NCBI GenBank assembly: GCA_946480525.1
Contig: CAMLLA010000063.1
Location: 1 to 13,906 of the forward strand
Reading direction: 5' to 3'
Length of the DNA stretch: 13,906 bases
From: an uncultured Asticcacaulis sp.
GTDB taxonomy: Bacteria > Pseudomonadota > Alphaproteobacteria > Caulobacterales > Caulobacteraceae
Position numbers and translations under genes: made by a program. Shown piece after piece: positions 2,836 to 11,368 of the stretch (positions are counted from its first letter, which is position 1; each line of letters opens with the position of its first letter). The notes beneath the pieces are model-generated. The model ran no database searches, had not been told where the DNA came from, and saw only the letters and a program-made list of their open reading frames with translations.

Positions 2836-2897
2836 GGAGCGGAGCGCATGGGGCGCAGCCAAGGCATAGATTGTGACCCTGTGAGGGATGTCAGATC

Positions 2898-2904
2898 AAG
2901 GAGA
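2898..2904 (+). promoter_or_regulatory. Shine-Dalgarno that decides the ada start
   Basis: AAGGAGA sits seven bases before the ATG at 2912. The upstream in-frame ATG at 2888 has a GAGGG immediately abutting it, too close to function well. Starting at 2912 also places the Zn/methyl-acceptor cysteines one residue from their E. coli Ada positions. Confidence 0.8.
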
Positions 2905-2911
2905 CTATACT

Positions 2912-3970
2912 ATGTTAGATGCCATGACCGCCGTTTCAACCGACACGCGTATGCAGTCCGTCCGTGATCGCGATGCCCGCGAGGACGGCCGGTTCGTCTA
3001 TGCCGTTGTTACAACTGGGGTTTTCTGCCGTCCGTCGTGTGGCGCGCGCACGCCGAAGCCCGAAAATATCCGCTTTTATGCCGGGCCGGACGACGCGCGG
3101 GCGGCCGGGTTCCGCGCCTGCCTGCGCTGCAGGCCGGAGCAGCCGTTGGGCGCGGCCCAGGCGACGATGATCGCCGAGATCTGCCGCCATATCGAAACCG
3201 CCGACAGCGAGCCGACGCTCGAACAACTGGCGAGGCGGGCGGGGCTGAGCCCGTTTCACTTCCACCGCGTCTTCAAGGCCGCGACGGGCCTGACGCCGAA
3301 GGCCTATGCCAGGGGCCACCGCGCCCGCCGCGTCCGGGAGGAACTGGCCGGCGACGGCCGGGTGACCGACGCGCTTTATGACGCCGGGTTCAATTCCAGC
3401 GGCCGGTTCTACGAAAGCACAAACGCGATTCTCGGCATGACGCCGACGCGGTTCAGGAACGGCGGCGACGGGACGGATGTCCGCTTTGCCGTCGCGGAGA
3501 CGAGCCTGGGCGCCATGCTGGTTGCCGAAAGCGACAAGGGGATCTGCGCCGTAGCGTTGGGAGACGATCCGGACACATTGGTGCGCGACCTTCAGGACCG
3601 GTTTCCAAAGGCGCGTCTGATCGGCGACGACGAGGCCTTTCAGCGCCGCGTGGCCGAGGTGGTGGGGCTGGTGGAGCATCCCGGCAGGGGTGTCGAACTG
3701 CCCCTCGATATCCGCGGAACGGCCTTTCAGCAAAAGGTTTGGGCGGCGCTGCGGCGCATTCCTGCCGGGCAAACGCTGAGCTATGCCGAACTCGCCGAAC
3801 GCATTGGCGATCCGAAGGCGGTAAGAGCGGTCGCCGGCGCGTGCGCCGCCAACAGCCTGGCGCTCCTTGTACCGTGCCACCGTATCGTACGGACTGACGG
3901 CGCCTTGAGCGGCTATCGCTGGGGCACCGAACGCAAGCGCGTCCTTTTGCAGCGCGAGGCTGGCCGATGA
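2912..3970 (+). CDS. ada: Ada: bifunctional methyl-phosphotriester / O6-methylguanine-DNA methyltransferase and transcriptional activator
   Basis: A 352-residue protein with the full E. coli-type Ada architecture. The N-terminal Zn domain has four cysteines at C39, C43, C70 and C73 (FCRPSC and ACLRC; E. coli C38, C42, C69, C72). An AraC-type helix-turn-helix spans about 100-185 (LEQLARRAGLSPFHFHRVFK). The C-terminal O6-alkylguanine methyltransferase domain carries LVPCHRIVRTDG with acceptor C322 (E. coli C321). Transfer of a methyl group from a DNA phosphotriester to the N-terminal Cys turns Ada into an activator of its own operon; the C-terminal Cys irreversibly repairs O6-methylguanine. The stop overlaps the next gene's start (ATGA, 3967-3970), and alkB follows. 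A candidate Ada box lies upstream. All key residues are present, so both activities are expected. Confidence 0.97.
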   Translation: MLDAMTAVSTDTRMQSVRDRDAREDGRFVYAVVTTGVFCRPSCGARTPKPENIRFYAGPDDARAAGFRACLRCRPEQPLGAAQATMIAEICRHIETADSEPTLEQLARRAGLSPFHFHRVFKAATGLTPKAYARGHRARRVREELAGDGRVTDALYDAGFNSSGRFYESTNAILGMTPTRFRNGGDGTDVRFAVAETSLGAMLVAESDKGICAVALGDDPDTLVRDLQDRFPKARLIGDDEAFQRRVAEVVGLVEHPGRGVELPLDIRGTAFQQKVWAALRRIPAGQTLSYAELAERIGDPKAVRAVAGACAANSLALLVPCHRIVRTDGALSGYRWGTERKRVLLQREAGR

Positions 3971-4659
3971 GTCCGGAAGACTATGATTGGAAAGCGGTGG
4001 AGGCGGAGCTCAATGACCATGGCTGCGCCGTTCTGCCGGGACTGCTGGACGCTGAACAGTGCCACGACATAGGCAGCATCTATGTCACCGGCGCGTTTCG
4101 CAGCCATATCCATATGGCCAGGCATGGCTTTGGGCGGGGGGACTATAAGTATTTTGCCTATCCGTTGCCGTCCCTGGTGACGGACCTGCGGACCGGACTT
4201 TATCCGCCCCTTGCGGCGATTGCCGGACACTGGAACCGGCGTATGGGAATCGATGTCCGTTATCCGGCAACGCACGCCGATTACCTGGCGCAATGTCATG
4301 CCGCCGGACAGGTGCGGCCGACGCCGTTGCTGCTGAACTATGGGCCGGGCGATTACAACTGCCTGCATCAGGATCTTTACGGCGACCTCGTCTTTCCGTT
4401 GCAGGTCGCCGTCCTTTTGTCGCAGCCCGAGGAGGATTTCACGGGCGGCCAGTTCGTACTCACCGAACAGAGGCCGCGCATGCAGTCCCGTGCCGAGGTC
4501 GTGCCGCTGCAACAGGGCGACGCCGTCATATTCGCCGTCCATCACCGGCCGGTGCGCGGCGCGCACGGTGATTATCGCGTGACCATGCGCCACGGCGTCA
4601 GCCGCGTCCGGTCGGGACGACGCCGGACGCTCGGGATCATTTTCCACGATGCCGCCTGA
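3967..4659 (+). CDS. Uncharacterised 2OG-Fe(II) oxygenase-type protein in the ada-alkB operon
   Basis: A 230-residue protein. The central motif NCLHQDLYGDLVFPLQVAVL contains an HxD Fe(II) pair (H134, D136) leading into a beta strand, as in 2OG-Fe(II) dioxygenases. It is followed by GGQFVL at 160-165, a common double-stranded beta-helix turn, and a conserved-looking end (MRHGVSRVRSG, then TLGIIFHDA). Candidates for the distal iron ligand are H193 (HHRPVRG) or H209, with an Arg downstream for 2-oxoglutarate. It resembles the family annotated in genomes only as '2OG-Fe dioxygenase / prolyl 4-hydroxylase-like' (I recall COG3826/DUF2086). The start overlaps the ada stop by four bases and the end overlaps alkB by eleven, so it is made together with two alkylation-repair enzymes. 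A role in alkylation damage is therefore inferred from context; the substrate is unknown. Confidence 0.85.
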   Translation: MSPEDYDWKAVEAELNDHGCAVLPGLLDAEQCHDIGSIYVTGAFRSHIHMARHGFGRGDYKYFAYPLPSLVTDLRTGLYPPLAAIAGHWNRRMGIDVRYPATHADYLAQCHAAGQVRPTPLLLNYGPGDYNCLHQDLYGDLVFPLQVAVLLSQPEEDFTGGQFVLTEQRPRMQSRAEVVPLQQGDAVIFAVHHRPVRGAHGDYRVTMRHGVSRVRSGRRRTLGIIFHDAA

Positions 4660-5284
4660 GCAACCGGACCTGTTCGCCGCGCCGCCGCCGGAAGGCGTGA
4701 CCGTCCTGCGCGGCCTTGCCCTGCCGTACGCGGCGGCCATTCTGGCGGAAATCGAACGCATTGCCGTGGTCGCGCCCTTTCGCGCCATGCAGGTGCCGGG
4801 CGGCGGCACCATGTCGGTCGCCATGACGAACTGCGGGGAAGCCGGCTGGGTAACCGATCTGACGGGCTATCGCTACGCCCCGGTCGATCCGGGGACGGGG
4901 CGGCCGTGGCCTGAGATGCCCGCGCCCGTCCGCGATCTTGCCGTGCGGGCCGCGGAGATCGCGGGGTTTGGCGGCTTTCGGCCTGACGCGTGCCTGATCA
5001 ACCGCTATGAACCGGGCGCGCGCATGGGGTTGCACCAGGACCGCGATGAGCTGGATCGCGCGGCGCCGATCGTTTCGCTGTCGCTGGGGCTGCCCGCGAC
5101 CTTTTTGTTCGGCGGCTTAAGGCGAAACGACCCGCAGATCCGGATCAGCCTTTTCCACGGGGATGTCGTGGTCTGGGGCGGACCGGCGCGCATGGCCTAT
5201 CATGGTATTTCGCCGTTAAAGGACGGCATTCATCCGGATATTGGCCGGCAGCGTCTCAACCTGACGATTCGCAAGGCGCTTTAG
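4649..5284 (+). CDS. alkB: AlkB, alpha-ketoglutarate-dependent DNA dealkylase
   Basis: A 211-residue protein, against 216 in E. coli. It has the iron ligands H129-x-D131 (GLHQDRDE) and H185 (YHGISPL). Arginines R202 and R208 in RQRLNLTIRKA bind 2-oxoglutarate. All are exactly two residues offset from E. coli AlkB H131, D133, H187, R204 and R210. The nucleotide-lid region near the N-terminus (MQVPGGGTMSVAMTNCG) is also recognisable. AlkB oxidatively removes methyl groups from 1-methyladenine and 3-methylcytosine in DNA or RNA, releasing formaldehyde. The ATG lies inside the end of the preceding dioxygenase gene (eleven-base overlap), and the stop runs into the base of a strong terminator hairpin, so it is the last gene of the ada operon. 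Confidence 0.97.
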   Translation: MPPEQPDLFAAPPPEGVTVLRGLALPYAAAILAEIERIAVVAPFRAMQVPGGGTMSVAMTNCGEAGWVTDLTGYRYAPVDPGTGRPWPEMPAPVRDLAVRAAEIAGFGGFRPDACLINRYEPGARMGLHQDRDELDRAAPIVSLSLGLPATFLFGGLRRNDPQIRISLFHGDVVVWGGPARMAYHGISPLKDGIHPDIGRQRLNLTIRKAL

Positions 5285-8212: not shown

Positions 8213-8248
8213 GGCAGGCATAGATTCACCGAATCTAAGGAGCCTGCC
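8213..8248 (+). promoter_or_regulatory. Two-stem leader hairpin enclosing the SRPBCC Shine-Dalgarno, with two GANTC sites
   Basis: The outer stem pairs GGCAGGC (8213-8219) with GCCTGCC (8242-8248). The inner stem pairs TAGATTC (8221-8227) with GAATCTA (8231-8237) around an ACC loop. Both stems are perfect, 14 bp in all. The ribosome site AAGGAG (8237-8242) falls exactly in the four-base bulge between the stems, with its first and last bases paired. The inner arms also contain GATTC and GAATC, both GANTC, the CcrM methylation site. This could be an RNA switch or thermometer hiding the ribosome site, or a methylation-sensitive DNA operator. The structure is seen in the sequence; the role is inference. 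Confidence 0.55.
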
Positions 8249-8251
8249 CGG

Positions 8252-8701
8252 ATGCCCATTGTCGTCGAACACGGCATAGATCTACCTCAGCCACCGCATG
8301 AGGTCTTCGCCTTTCTGGACGATTTCAAACGTGTGCCCACCTGGCTCAAGCGTTGCGAAGGCGTGGCCAAGCTGGGGCAGGGACCGAACAAAGCCGGCGA
8401 CAAGCTGCGCTACGCCTATTTCGAAGGCGGCAAGCATCGGATCATGGATGGCGTCATCTCGACCTACGAGCCCGACCGGCAACTGAGCTATCGTTATTAC
8501 GACAAGATGATGCAGGCCTTCATCGACTTCCATCTCGAGCCGCGAGGGGAGGGAACGCACCTGACCCACCGCGTCGAACTGGTCCCCAACTCCCTGCTGT
8601 GCAAACTGCTGCTGCCCCTGTTCAAGGCCAAGCTGCCGAAACAGACCGCTGAGGCGATGGCGGATCTGAAAGCGATTCTGGGGCAGGAAACCTTGGCATA
8701 A
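8252..8701 (+). CDS. SRPBCC-family (START-like) ligand-binding protein, function unknown
   Basis: A 149-residue soluble protein without a signal peptide or membrane segment. The opening MPIVVEHGIDLPQPPHEVFA, then FLDDFKRVPTWLKRC, is the standard first strand and two short helices of SRPBCC/polyketide-cyclase folds. It is followed by antiparallel strands (KLRYAYFEGG, RIMDGVISTYEP, QLSYRYYD, THLTHRVEL) and a long C-terminal helix (KLPKQTAEAMADLKAIL) that closes the hydrophobic pocket. Such proteins bind small hydrophobic ligands; no ligand can be named. The start is ATG 8252, nine bases after AAGGAG; upstream starts would translate through the leader hairpin. Its stop codon sits in the palindrome GGCATAACTTATGCC (8695-8709), immediately before the repeat-flanked DUF559 unit. 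It appears to be transcribed alone. Confidence 0.8.
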   Translation: MPIVVEHGIDLPQPPHEVFAFLDDFKRVPTWLKRCEGVAKLGQGPNKAGDKLRYAYFEGGKHRIMDGVISTYEPDRQLSYRYYDKMMQAFIDFHLEPRGEGTHLTHRVELVPNSLLCKLLLPLFKAKLPKQTAEAMADLKAILGQETLA

Positions 8702-8710
8702 CTTATGCCT

Positions 8711-8764
8711 GCCCACGAGAGTGGGGAGGGGGACCGCGCCGTGAAACGGCGTGGTGGTGGGGGC
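8711..8764 (+). repeat. Left inverted copy of the repeat flanking the DUF559 gene
   Basis: Two blocks are identical to the reverse complement of the right copy: GTGGGGAGGGGGACC (8721-8735) and GTGGTGGTGGGGGC (8751-8764). The 15 bases between them differ from the right copy. They nevertheless form a 10-bp hairpin with the flanking bases: 8733-8742 pairs with 8746-8755 around a GAA loop, with one G-T wobble. A second small hairpin is CCCAC (8712-8716) with GTGGG (8721-8725). The repeat ends six bases before the DUF559 ATG. Confidence 0.8.
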
Positions 8765-8769
8765 ACCTC

Positions 8770-9186
8770 ATGCGACGTAAATACGAACAGGCGCGTAAAT
8801 TGCGCAAAGCTATGACGGACGCGGAAAAGCTTCTCTGGTATCGTATTCGCGAGCGAGGTGATGGGGCGCCGATTTTCCGTCGGCAGTATGCGATTGGAAC
8901 CTACATCCTGGACTTTTACTGTATCAAGGCAAAGCTAGCAGTCGAAGTCGATGGTTATTTTCATGGCACTGACGAAGGGTATGCGCGCGATGCGGTCCGA
9001 GATGCCTGGCTGGAGACGCAAGGTATTGAAGTTTATCGCATTCCAGCGGCGGATATTTTTGCCAATGCAGACGCCGCTGCGGATGGCGTGATACTAAAAG
9101 CATCCGCGCTTCTGGCGACTTCCGCGCCCCCACCACCACTCGCTCCGCTCATGGTCCCCCTCCCCACACGTGGGGAGGATAACTAA
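8770..9186 (+). CDS. DUF559 domain endonuclease-like protein (Vsr / PD-(D/E)xK type)
   Basis: A 138-residue protein. The N-terminal helix (QARKLRKAMTDAEKLLWYRI) and core (FRRQYAIGTYILDFYC, then KLAVEVDGYFHG) are the DUF559 signature. D48, E59, D61 and H65 are candidate metal-binding or catalytic residues of a PD-(D/E)xK / very-short-patch-repair-like nuclease fold. The pattern GIEVYRIPAADIFAN near 85-99 is the usual last strand. Residues 119-138, rich in Pro (APPPPLAPLMVPLPTRGEDN), lie outside the domain and are encoded by the right inverted repeat. There is no good Shine-Dalgarno; only GGGGG from the left repeat lies about six bases upstream. Base composition is lower in GC than the flanking genes, suggesting transfer. 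Nuclease activity and substrate are not shown; the family is poorly characterised. Confidence 0.85.
   Translation: MRRKYEQARKLRKAMTDAEKLLWYRIRERGDGAPIFRRQYAIGTYILDFYCIKAKLAVEVDGYFHGTDEGYARDAVRDAWLETQGIEVYRIPAADIFANADAAADGVILKASALLATSAPPPPLAPLMVPLPTRGEDN
9126..9178 (-). repeat. Right inverted copy of the repeat flanking the DUF559 gene
   Basis: On the minus strand this reads GTGGGGAGGGGGACC (9153-9167) then GTGGTGGTGGGGGC (9126-9139), identical to the left copy, with a different 13-base spacer (9140-9152). At its outer end CCTCCCCAC (9159-9167) and GTGGGGAGG (9170-9178) form a perfect 9-bp hairpin. The copy is entirely inside the DUF559 reading frame and supplies its last 20 residues. Confidence 0.8.
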
Positions 9187-9286
9187 GTGCGATTAAAAAC
9201 CGAAATCTTTTTGTGCCAGCGCCTCGACAACACCAAGAAAGGCGGCTTTAACAGTCGCACTGGTAACTAATTTTCGCAGGCCGCGC
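9187..9286. other. Leader region of the S9 peptidase gene with an interrupted inverted repeat
   Basis: A 100-bp gap. AGTGCGATTAAA (9186-9197) is partly mirrored by TTTAA (9247-9251) and TCGCACT (9255-9261), giving 7+5 bp of pairing with a three-base bulge and a 49-base loop. TAACTAA occurs at both ends (9180-9186 and 9264-9270). The stretch is more AT-rich than its surroundings. I find no consensus promoter. Confidence 0.35.
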
Positions 9287-11368
9287 ATGTTCTCCCGAAA
9301 CCTGAAATCCGTCCTCGCCGCCACGCTCGTGGGTTCGGCCTCGCTCCTGGCCCTGTCCGCGTCCGCGCAGGACACCAAGCAGCCGTTTACCTATCAGGAC
9401 CTGGTATCGCTTGACCGGATAAGCGGGCTGAACGTCAATGCGTCCGGCAGACATGCCCTGTTCCAGGTCCGCACCACCGATCTCGACAAGAACAAGGGCG
9501 TCAATGCGATCTGGCTGAAAGACCTGTCGAAACCCACATCGCCCGAAATCAAACTTGCGGTTTCCGAGGGTGGCGCGACCTCGCCCAAGTTCAGCGCCGA
9601 CGGCAAGACCATCTACTTCCTGTCGTCGCGTTCCGGCTCGACGCAGGTGTGGAAGACCGATCTGACCGGCGCGACCGCCACCCAGGTCACGAAGCTGCCG
9701 CTTGATGTCGTTTCTTACCTGGTGTCCCCGGACGGCAAAGGCGTCGTCGTGTCCCTGGCTGTTTTTCCAGAATGCAAGGGCAACGAGATCGATTGTACCG
9801 TCAGGACGAGTGCGGACAGGAAGGCTCAGAAGTCGACCGGCGTCATCTATGACAAGCTGTTTGTGCGTCACTGGGATGAATGGGCCGACGGCACGCGCAA
9901 CCATCTCTTCTACGTCGGCTTCGATGGCGCCGCTCCGCTGTCGCTGACCGACGGCTACGACGGCGATGTGCCGTCCAAGCCGTTCGGCGACGAGGCGGAA
10001 TACACGATCTCAGCCGATGCCAGGACTGTCTACTTCGGTGCGCGTGAGGCCGGGAAGACCGAACCGTGGTCGACGAACTTCGACGTCTACTCGGTGCCGC
10101 TGACCGGCGGCGCCCTGACCAACCTGACCGACGGCAACGAAGCGTGGGACGCCAGTCCGCGCCTGTCGCCGGACGGCAAGACCCTGGCCTACAAGGCGAT
10201 GCGCCGCCCCGCCAACGAAGCCGACCGCTTCGATATCTTCCTGCGCGACATCAAAACCGGCGCCGTAACGCCGCTGGCTGCCGGCTGGGACCGCAGTGCC
10301 GATGAGATCGCCTGGTCGAAGGACGGCAAGTCGCTTCTCGTCAGCGCCGATGAGACCGGCTCGCACAAGCTGTTCCGGATCGACGTCAAGACCGGCAAGG
10401 TGGTGACGTTGTCGAAGGACGGCCATATCGACGCCTTCGCCGAGACGGCGCAAGGCGTCGTCTTCCTGAAGAGCGGTCTGTCCGGGCCGTCGCAGCTATA
10501 TGCGGCCAATTCGAAAGCCATGTTCATCGACATGGGCGCGCGCAGCCTGACCGGCATCAATCCCGTGCTGAAGGACCGCGCCTTCGGTCAGTACGAGCAG
10601 TTCACCTTCAAAGGTTGGAACAACGAGACCGTCCACGGCTATGTCATGAAGCCGGCCAATTACGAGGAGGGCAAGACCTATCCGGTCGCCTTCATCGTCC
10701 ACGGCGGCCCTCAGGTGTCTTTCGGTGACGCCTGGTCCTATCGCTGGAATCCGAATGTCTTCGCAGGCGAGGGATACGCGGTGGTCTTCATCGACTTCCA
10801 CGGCTCGCCCGGCTACGGCCAGGCCTTTACCGACTCGATCTCCCAACACTGGGGCGACCGCCCGCTCGAAGACCTGCAAAAAGGCTGGGCTCACGCGCTT
10901 TCCAGCTACACGTTCCTCGACGGCGACCGGGCCTGCGCGCTGGGTGCATCCTATGGCGGCTTCATGGTCAACTGGATCGCCGGCAACTGGAAAGACCCGT
11001 GGAAATGCCTGGTCAATCACGACGGCATCTTCGACACCCGAACCATGGCCGAAGAGACCGAGGAGCTGTGGTTCTCGGAAACCGAAAACGGCGGCATGCC
11101 CTACGGCAATATGGCGAAGATGGACACCTTCAATCCCGCGCTTCATGCCCACAACTGGTCGAAGCCGATGCTGGTCATCCATTCCGACAAGGACTATCGT
11201 GTCGTACCGGGACAGGGCATCGCGACCTTCACAGCCCTGCAGCGCCAAGGCATCGAATCGAAGTTCCTGCGCTTCCCGGACGAGAACCACTGGGTGCTCA
11301 AGCCGCAGAATTCATTGAAGTGGCACGCCACGGTATTTGACTGGTTGAAGACACATACGGAGAAGTAG
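9287..11368 (+). CDS. Secreted S9-family prolyl-oligopeptidase-like serine peptidase (DPP5 / acylaminoacyl-peptidase type)
   Basis: A 693-residue protein with a Sec signal peptide (residues 1-27, cleavage after ASA) and a beta-propeller of repeated SPDGK/SADGK blades (about 40-430). An alpha/beta-hydrolase domain covers about 435-690. The catalytic serine is S555 in LGASYGGFMVNW, the Asp is probably D636 in IHSDKDYRVV, and the His is H668 in DENHW. The oxyanion segment HGGP is at 472-475. These features place it with S9C peptidases that cleave dipeptides or short peptides in the periplasm. Length and layout are normal for the family. The class A beta-lactamase gene begins three bases after its stop, so they are co-transcribed. 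The ATG at 9287 has only a weak ribosome site; it was chosen because it gives a complete signal peptide. Confidence 0.95.
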   Translation: MFSRNLKSVLAATLVGSASLLALSASAQDTKQPFTYQDLVSLDRISGLNVNASGRHALFQVRTTDLDKNKGVNAIWLKDLSKPTSPEIKLAVSEGGATSPKFSADGKTIYFLSSRSGSTQVWKTDLTGATATQVTKLPLDVVSYLVSPDGKGVVVSLAVFPECKGNEIDCTVRTSADRKAQKSTGVIYDKLFVRHWDEWADGTRNHLFYVGFDGAAPLSLTDGYDGDVPSKPFGDEAEYTISADARTVYFGAREAGKTEPWSTNFDVYSVPLTGGALTNLTDGNEAWDASPRLSPDGKTLAYKAMRRPANEADRFDIFLRDIKTGAVTPLAAGWDRSADEIAWSKDGKSLLVSADETGSHKLFRIDVKTGKVVTLSKDGHIDAFAETAQGVVFLKSGLSGPSQLYAANSKAMFIDMGARSLTGINPVLKDRAFGQYEQFTFKGWNNETVHGYVMKPANYEEGKTYPVAFIVHGGPQVSFGDAWSYRWNPNVFAGEGYAVVFIDFHGSPGYGQAFTDSISQHWGDRPLEDLQKGWAHALSSYTFLDGDRACALGASYGGFMVNWIAGNWKDPWKCLVNHDGIFDTRTMAEETEELWFSETENGGMPYGNMAKMDTFNPALHAHNWSKPMLVIHSDKDYRVVPGQGIATFTALQRQGIESKFLRFPDENHWVLKPQNSLKWHATVFDWLKTHTEK

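Follow-up and report, generated by a model that had tools for sequence, protein, structure and literature searches.

A DUF559 nuclease gene between inverted two-hairpin repeats is probably a minimal mobile element of a widespread family

The unit at positions 8703-9186 of the window, as we call the whole stretch of 13,906 nucleotides from an uncultured Asticcacaulis sp. that was analyzed, is probably a minimal mobile element of a widespread family whose members have a DUF559 nuclease as their sole protein and gene-less derivatives that resemble MITEs and REPINs. The mobility of the element is well supported, and the association of the nuclease gene with paired repeats, the specificity of the repeat subtypes, the presence or absence of units between sister genomes and one precise empty site were all observed directly. 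An initial annotation of this DNA, which had proposed a minimal selfish element, was confirmed in its observation and supported in its interpretation.

Results

Organization of the window locus

The features of the locus are the following.

8246-8701, + strand: left neighbor, polyketide cyclase/SRPBCC family, one side of the site found empty in relatives
8703-8768 (approximate ends), + strand: left terminal repeat, type A, with the same layout at other DUF559 loci; outer hairpin at about 8708-8729, inner hairpin at about 8733-8755, G-rich inner end GGTGGTGGGGGC
8721-8735, + strand: 15-nt block, exact inverted copy at 9153-9167
8751-8764, + strand: 14-nt block, exact inverted copy at 9126-9139
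8770-9186, + strand: DUF559/EDxHD (Vsr-like) nuclease gene, 138 amino acids, PF04480 E value 3.3e-26
9126-9186, - strand: right terminal repeat, inverted; inner hairpin at about 9135-9155, outer hairpin at about 9159-9178
9287-11368, + strand: right neighbor, S9 prolyl oligopeptidase family, other side of the same site

The two blocks are perfect, inverted and in mirrored order, with a single ORF (8770-9186, + strand) between them, as the initial annotation had noted in describing perfect inverted blocks around one small nuclease-like gene of lower GC content than its neighbors. The nuclease assignment held as well (PF04480, DUF559), and the GC content of the gene outside the repeat (8770-9125) was 53.1%, against 59.2% and 61.6% in the neighbors and 62.2% in the window. 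The blocks are parts of units of about 60 nt on the left and on the right, in which, from the outside towards the gene, an outer hairpin of the CCTCCCC type is joined by the link GGGGACC to an inner hairpin that is followed by the inner end GGTGGTGGGGGC; the right unit encodes the C-terminal end of the nuclease, the last 20 or so codons of the ORF lying within it. The motif GGGGAGGGGGACC-N(6-30)-GGTGGNGGGG has two copies in the window, one on each side, a number reached in none of 200 shuffles. When positions 8600-9300 were Markov-resampled 2000 times, perfect inverted pairs of at least 15 nt arose in 30 cases and of at least 14 nt in 118; a single pair of this kind is thus unremarkable in a G-rich stretch, and the weight of the observation lies in its recurrence at other loci. 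As single-stranded DNA the left unit folded better than 200 of 200 shuffles (z -5.9), and the right unit was unexceptional (z -1.1), 26 of 200 shuffles folding at least as well.

No Rfam family reached the gathering score in the window or in four repeat-bearing loci, and a search of window positions 8600-9300 returned nothing even at E values up to 1. PADLOC yielded weak partial matches only (best E value 1.6e-4), no DNA match was found in phages, and the 35 plasmid records with DUF559 matches were all below 60% identity. The nearest other homologue of the window nuclease is an Asticcacaulis protein (82% identical), and the S9 protein has an 89% identical counterpart in genome G026 of the genus sample. 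Compared with locus L111, its nearest relative, the left inner hairpin (8733-8755) differs in its tip, the tip of L111 resembling that of the right hairpin of the window while the rest is collinear; an exchange between arms is possible.

Elsewhere in the window, positions 2888-5284 hold an Ada-like ORF followed by two ORFs that by eye resemble a 2OG-Fe oxygenase and AlkB, which looks like an alkylation-repair operon, and a serine beta-lactamase family gene (PF13354; 11372-12307) adjoins a glutaminase gene.

The DUF559 enzyme

The only Pfam matches of the window protein were DUF559 and REase_MTES_1575. Residues E19, D48, E59, D61 and D74 were invariant in 53 of 53 aligned homologues, and H65 was present in at least 90%. 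Profile searches, in which matches at E values of about 0.3 and above were taken as chance, pointed to PDB entries 3hrl (an endonuclease-like protein) and 3r3p (a mobile-intron nuclease, E value 2e-4) and to PvuRts1I. Foldseek searches with a structure model (pLDDT 89.5) returned 3hrl, I-Bth0305I (E value 8e-5) and, weakly, Vsr. The protein has an EDxHD, Vsr-like catalytic domain, its residues being assigned by their spacing in Caulobacter VsrA. DUF559 proteins are named "endonuclease domain-containing" or "very-short-patch-repair endonuclease" in databases. According to the available parts of PMC12907096, VsrA (CCNA_02930) contains a DUF559 domain, is proposed as a VSP repair enzyme and is required for a response to DNA damage when the cells have no cytosine methylase. 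This requirement suggests that proteins of this kind can act on the chromosome of their own host.

Matching flanks around DUF559 genes

A scan of genome contigs with the window protein alone found no relative, and a narrower alignment profile gave 80 DUF559 loci, the best 80 of 507 relatives, most of which, judging from record titles, come from Caulobacteraceae and Sphingomonadales, the rest including betaproteobacteria. When the left flank was compared with the reverse complement of the right flank, 43 of the 80 loci scored at or above the 95th percentile of 957 swapped pairs, and the mean score was 29.1 versus 13.1 for swapped pairs (80 loci, one of 81 having been dropped for a short flank).

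A complete count took in all PF04480 matches of 20 carrier genomes (84) together with 8 of the sister genomes G038 and G021, 92 in all. With the same flank score and a threshold of at least 16, matching flanks were found around 71 of the 92 genes, in 3 of 4000 random windows drawn from G003, G021 and G038, and in 48 of 404 cross pairs, in which the left and right flanks belong to different DUF559 genes of one genome; because the 20 genomes were picked as carriers of such loci, these figures are not population frequencies. In 66 of 89 cases, where 19 would be expected, no cross pair within the genome scored as high as the own flank pair. The 21 genes below the threshold include three of the seven in G038, at which inspection by eye still shows repeats, shorter or diverged. 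One of the 92 genes, L300, has a right flank of only 43 nt. DUF559 genes usually lacking flanking repeats would have spoken against the initial annotation; they usually have them.

After removal of 24 duplicates from 173 loci, 149 unique genes were assigned to three coarse repeat subtypes by regular expressions, which left 65 left and 87 right flanks untyped. The G-rich end faced the gene only inward in 63 left flanks and was only reversed in 5; the corresponding numbers for right flanks were 46 and 9, the rest being untyped or showing both. The DUF559 gene of G021 (L192, G021:C9:67837-68136) has repeats on its right only and is a decayed or rearranged unit.

Repeat subtypes and the nuclease tree

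Where both sides could be typed, the subtype was the same in 39 of 43 genes, compared with a mean of 23.4 and a maximum of 32 in 1000 shuffles. On a nuclease tree of 85 genes and 116 columns, 46 of the genes being typed on one side only, subtype required 12 changes versus 24.8 after shuffling, and with two-sided labels only (39 genes) 6 versus 11.3, none of 200 shuffles being as low in either case; near relatives contribute to this clustering. The type-D units of Asticcacaulis (L191 and L100) group with betaproteobacterial type-D nucleases in a starred branch of the tree (eight rows, one type-A row among them), indicating that repeat type tends to track the nuclease and not the host. The window unit, which is of type A amid type-B nuclease relatives, indicates that subtype switches also occur, and in G038 several different repeat variants are spread over its seven DUF559 genes. 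As in REPIN-RAYT systems, the repeat subtype is cognate to the enzyme.

Gene-less copies and hairpin structure

The repeats are not confined to the window locus, the type-A pattern being present in 18 of the 20 genomes at 0-145 copies per genome, and a reversed control pattern occurred at most once per strand in any of the 20. The initial annotation had proposed counting solo against gene-associated copies, and in a 386-kb sample of A. aquaticus (G003), composed of one whole contig and stretches chosen from the listing of the type-A pattern, we counted one gene-bearing pair, 13 short +/- doublets whose two matches are separated by 41-49 nt, and 13 matches standing alone. Of these single matches at least one, L146, seems fortuitous. 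The doublets of this sample are elements of about 200 nt whose inner ends, TTCTTGCTT and TATCTTGC, are similar to those of L287, the gene-bearing DUF559 unit in G003, and one of them folded with a z of -11.1. The palindromic repeats of the G003 sample are therefore dispersed as inverted doublets, as in REPINs, and terminal inverted repeats are common to autonomous and gene-less copies, as in IS/MITE systems. With gene-less copies arranged as inverted doublets and a repeat type that goes with the nuclease lineage, the REP-like geometry recognized in the initial annotation is borne out.

The stems of the inner hairpins covary: the third pair was kept in 21 of 21 distinct 11-nt tips, 10.7 being expected from column make-up, and 15-nt tips were looser (13 of 17 at two of six pairs). 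Among 1,104 kb of G003, G021 and G038 (56 loci), eight inverted pairs had a gap of 250-1500 nt; three were by eye of the hairpin type and every one held DUF559, and the other five were without DUF559, two of them, orthologous to each other, bracketing an acetyltransferase-like ORF with a different repeat. This repeat, TATCCACAGATAAGCCAGATAAG, brackets the ORF (identified by eye) in both sister genomes (L245:8639-9210 and L255:14729-15306), and L117 has a comparable CCACAGATTACACAGAT doublet at the place where the element of the window is absent. The TATCCACAGATAAGCCAGATAAG and CCACAGATTACACAGAT repeats are perhaps a second repeat family carrying cargo. At two further DUF559 genes in the 56 loci, G038:C1:3291067 and G021:C9:67837, no inverted pair exceeded the threshold of the 1,104-kb search.

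Distribution over genomes

Among 199 Caulobacteraceae genomes, DUF559 was found in 163 and the outer-hairpin pattern in 189, and the counts of repeats and of DUF559 genes gave a Spearman coefficient of 0.645, in which kinship and assembly quality are ignored. The median number of hairpins was 4 in the 36 genomes without DUF559 and 59 in the 163 with it, and 47 of the 48 genomes with more than 100 hairpins carried DUF559. At the other end, DUF559 was present in 15 of the 36 genomes with five hairpins or fewer, with a strong match in 10, and 12 of the 36 DUF559-less genomes had more than 20 hairpins. The 20 carrier genomes hold 1-10 DUF559 genes each.

Presence, absence and empty sites

The window site is empty in four relatives (L117-L120), which keep the cyclase-S9 pair (S9 proteins 67-70% identical) and have neither the DUF559 gene nor a CCTCCCC-type hairpin; the unit is therefore not present at the same site in all relatives and, among those compared, is common only to the closest one, G026. 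Divergence at this site is too high for an exact junction. In other Asticcacaulis (L005, L132 and L133) a DUF559-like match lies near the same S9 peptidase on the opposite side, a position that suggests independent insertions.

The sister genomes G038 and G021, whose S9 loci share 95.6% identity over 5 kb, have seven and one DUF559 matches, respectively. The empty-site comparison covered three of the seven genes of G038 (L193, L197 and L198) and left out L191, L194, L195 and L196. All three were missing at the corresponding place in G021. At L198 the empty site is precise: G021 has a single copy of ACCGCGATACGCTA (17 nt, one mismatch), whereas in G038 a copy flanks the unit at either end, giving a flanking duplication of 14-17 nt with a few extra bases on the left. 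The matched blocks around L198 are 64 nt apart in G027 and 29 nt apart in G039, versus 565 and 544 nt in G038, and in G032 about 1.2 kb of other sequence occupies the place. L193 is absent from G021, G032, G039 and G027, and no duplication was seen there. At the place of L197, G021 has a single outer hairpin and none was seen in G039, G032 and G027. In the reverse direction, about 1.6 kb of unrelated sequence stands in G038 at the place of the DUF559 gene of G021. This presence and absence between sister genomes supports the term selfish element of the initial annotation.

Gene-less doublets differ between the sisters as well, one that is present in G021 being wholly absent from G038, and two others (sister comparison A 54107 and B 185259) correspond to a solo outer hairpin in the other genome. 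At L197 and at these two doublets, where the other allele consists of one outer hairpin, the difference could reflect loss rather than gain. Solo outer hairpins are sometimes the alternative allele of a unit or doublet (L256, L323-L327), and they may be target sites or excision remnants.

Two of the 87 unique elements whose ends are defined have exact outer direct repeats of 12 nt or more, compared with 1 of 1284 swapped pairs. The two are L198 (14 nt) and L292 (20 nt), the latter not a clean insertion, since relatives have non-orthologous sequence to its right. The duplications observed are thus none at L193, 14-17 nt at L198 and 20 nt at L292 with its non-orthologous flank.

Discussion

Alternative explanations

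A different enzyme, such as a RAYT/Y1 transposase, might spread the repeats and leave DUF559 as a passenger between two copies, which we consider improbable. Cargo between inverted repeats can occur, as the acetyltransferase-like ORF bracketed by another repeat family illustrates, some hairpin-rich genomes have no DUF559 match, and Y1_Tnp (PF01797) was over the cut-off in 5 of the 20 carrier genomes. However, this transposase family, the one searched genome-wide, had no match in the other 15 carriers, which have DUF559 and 13-145 type-A copies each; the hairpin-type long-gap pairs in 1,104 kb hold DUF559 in three of three cases, and neither the left-right match of subtypes within genomes nor the concordance of subtype and nuclease would be expected of a passenger.

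The solo hairpins bear on two further explanations. DUF559 could be a homing-type gene aimed at pre-existing terminator-like palindromes, the repeats being mainly targets duplicated on insertion and not transposon ends. At the L292 place a solo outer hairpin stands directly after the same gene in five of five relatives looked at, and the solo hairpin of G021 at the L197 site, those at the two doublets and the kinship to the homing endonuclease I-Bth0305I likewise speak for this idea; nevertheless, it appears unlikely, because no such hairpin stands at the vacant sites of L198 and L193 or at that of the window element and because the inner hairpin and inner end are common to the gene-less doublets and matched per locus, for which target duplication alone is insufficient. 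Solo hairpins behind genes also have a terminator-like look, and VsrA, a DUF559 protein of Caulobacter, is a proposed VSP repair enzyme (PMC12907096, available parts), as would suit a stationary Vsr-type mismatch-repair gene between ordinary bidirectional terminators. This explanation is highly improbable in view of the 1-10 copies per genome, the genes present in one sister and absent from the other, the precise empty site with its duplication of 14-17 nt, and the bipartite repeat whose subtypes match.

Proposed mechanism and implications

In the mobile-element reading, one DUF559 (EDxHD, Vsr/homing-type PD-(D/E)XK) nuclease gene lies between inverted structured ends, each combining an outer hairpin of the CCTCCCC..GGGGAGG type with an inner one whose inner end is G-rich, and the gene-less doublets of about 200 nt, with the same ends in the same order, would be non-autonomous derivatives moved in trans. 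We infer that the nuclease cuts the repeat or the target and that the element is copied by repair: the enzyme would recognize, nick or cut its cognate folded hairpin end, the target or both, and host repair across staggered nicks would copy the element in, which would account for the direct duplication and the filler bases at L198. The broader proposal, that a lone EDxHD nuclease is the only mobility protein, recognizing folded two-hairpin ends and inserting by host repair, often beside palindromes, and that it is the source of many GC-rich palindromic repeats in alphaproteobacterial and some betaproteobacterial and planctomycete genomes, has in our view about an even chance of being correct.

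DUF559 is a common domain of largely unknown function. If the proposal is true, many such genes would be mobility enzymes, a transposon class without a classical transposase would exist, and the many bacterial palindromic repeats that lack an explanation would gain an origin parallel to, and independent of, REP/RAYT. The element reading also offers an alternative view of the DNA-damage phenotype of Caulobacter VsrA.

Comparison with known systems

Like an IS with its MITEs, the DUF559 element comprises an autonomous unit with inverted ends and many gene-less derivatives, and for one unit a precise empty site goes with a duplication of 14-17 nt. It differs in that the encoded protein matches nuclease families only, with no known transposase domain, in that the duplications seen are variable or absent, and in that the ends are hairpins and not plain terminal repeats. 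To our knowledge, the element belongs to no known IS family.

The EDxHD homing endonuclease I-Bth0305I (PDB 3r3p) is similar in profile kinship, in fold and in being a small nuclease gene between conserved genes, but it is named as a mobile intron protein, whereas DUF559 units, with their structured inverted ends, occupy numerous non-allelic sites. VsrA (CCNA_02930) shares a weak Vsr fold match and the spacing of its proposed active residues E73, D102, D115 and H119 with E19, D48, D61 and H65 of the window protein; in the available parts of PMC12907096, however, it is read as a mismatch repair protein and has no described repeat context. The Caulobacter CIR repeats (Chen and Shapiro 2003), compared through their description in a review, are also intergenic and alphaproteobacterial. 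No link between DUF559 and flanking repeats was found in the literature searched, which included the available parts of PMC12907096, PMC3733652, PMC10969869, PMC8049555, PMC6083498 and PMC3116915 and few subscription papers, and judged against that literature the element appears undescribed.

REP/REPIN-RAYT systems, as described in the available parts of PMC3116915 and PMC8049555, are alike in their short palindromic repeats with a conserved tail, their inverted doublets and their enzyme-tied subtypes. In contrast, the RAYT enzyme (TnpA-REP) is a Y1 HUH transposase, whereas the enzyme here is a DUF559 EDxHD nuclease, and the repeats of the DUF559 element have two hairpins. RAYT genes do not copy themselves (PMC8049555, available parts), whereas DUF559 genes, at 1-10 per genome and with three presence/absence sites between the sisters, seem to be self-moving. 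The element acts like a REPIN-RAYT system yet stands outside that group, having a nuclease in place of a Y1 enzyme and a gene that itself moves.
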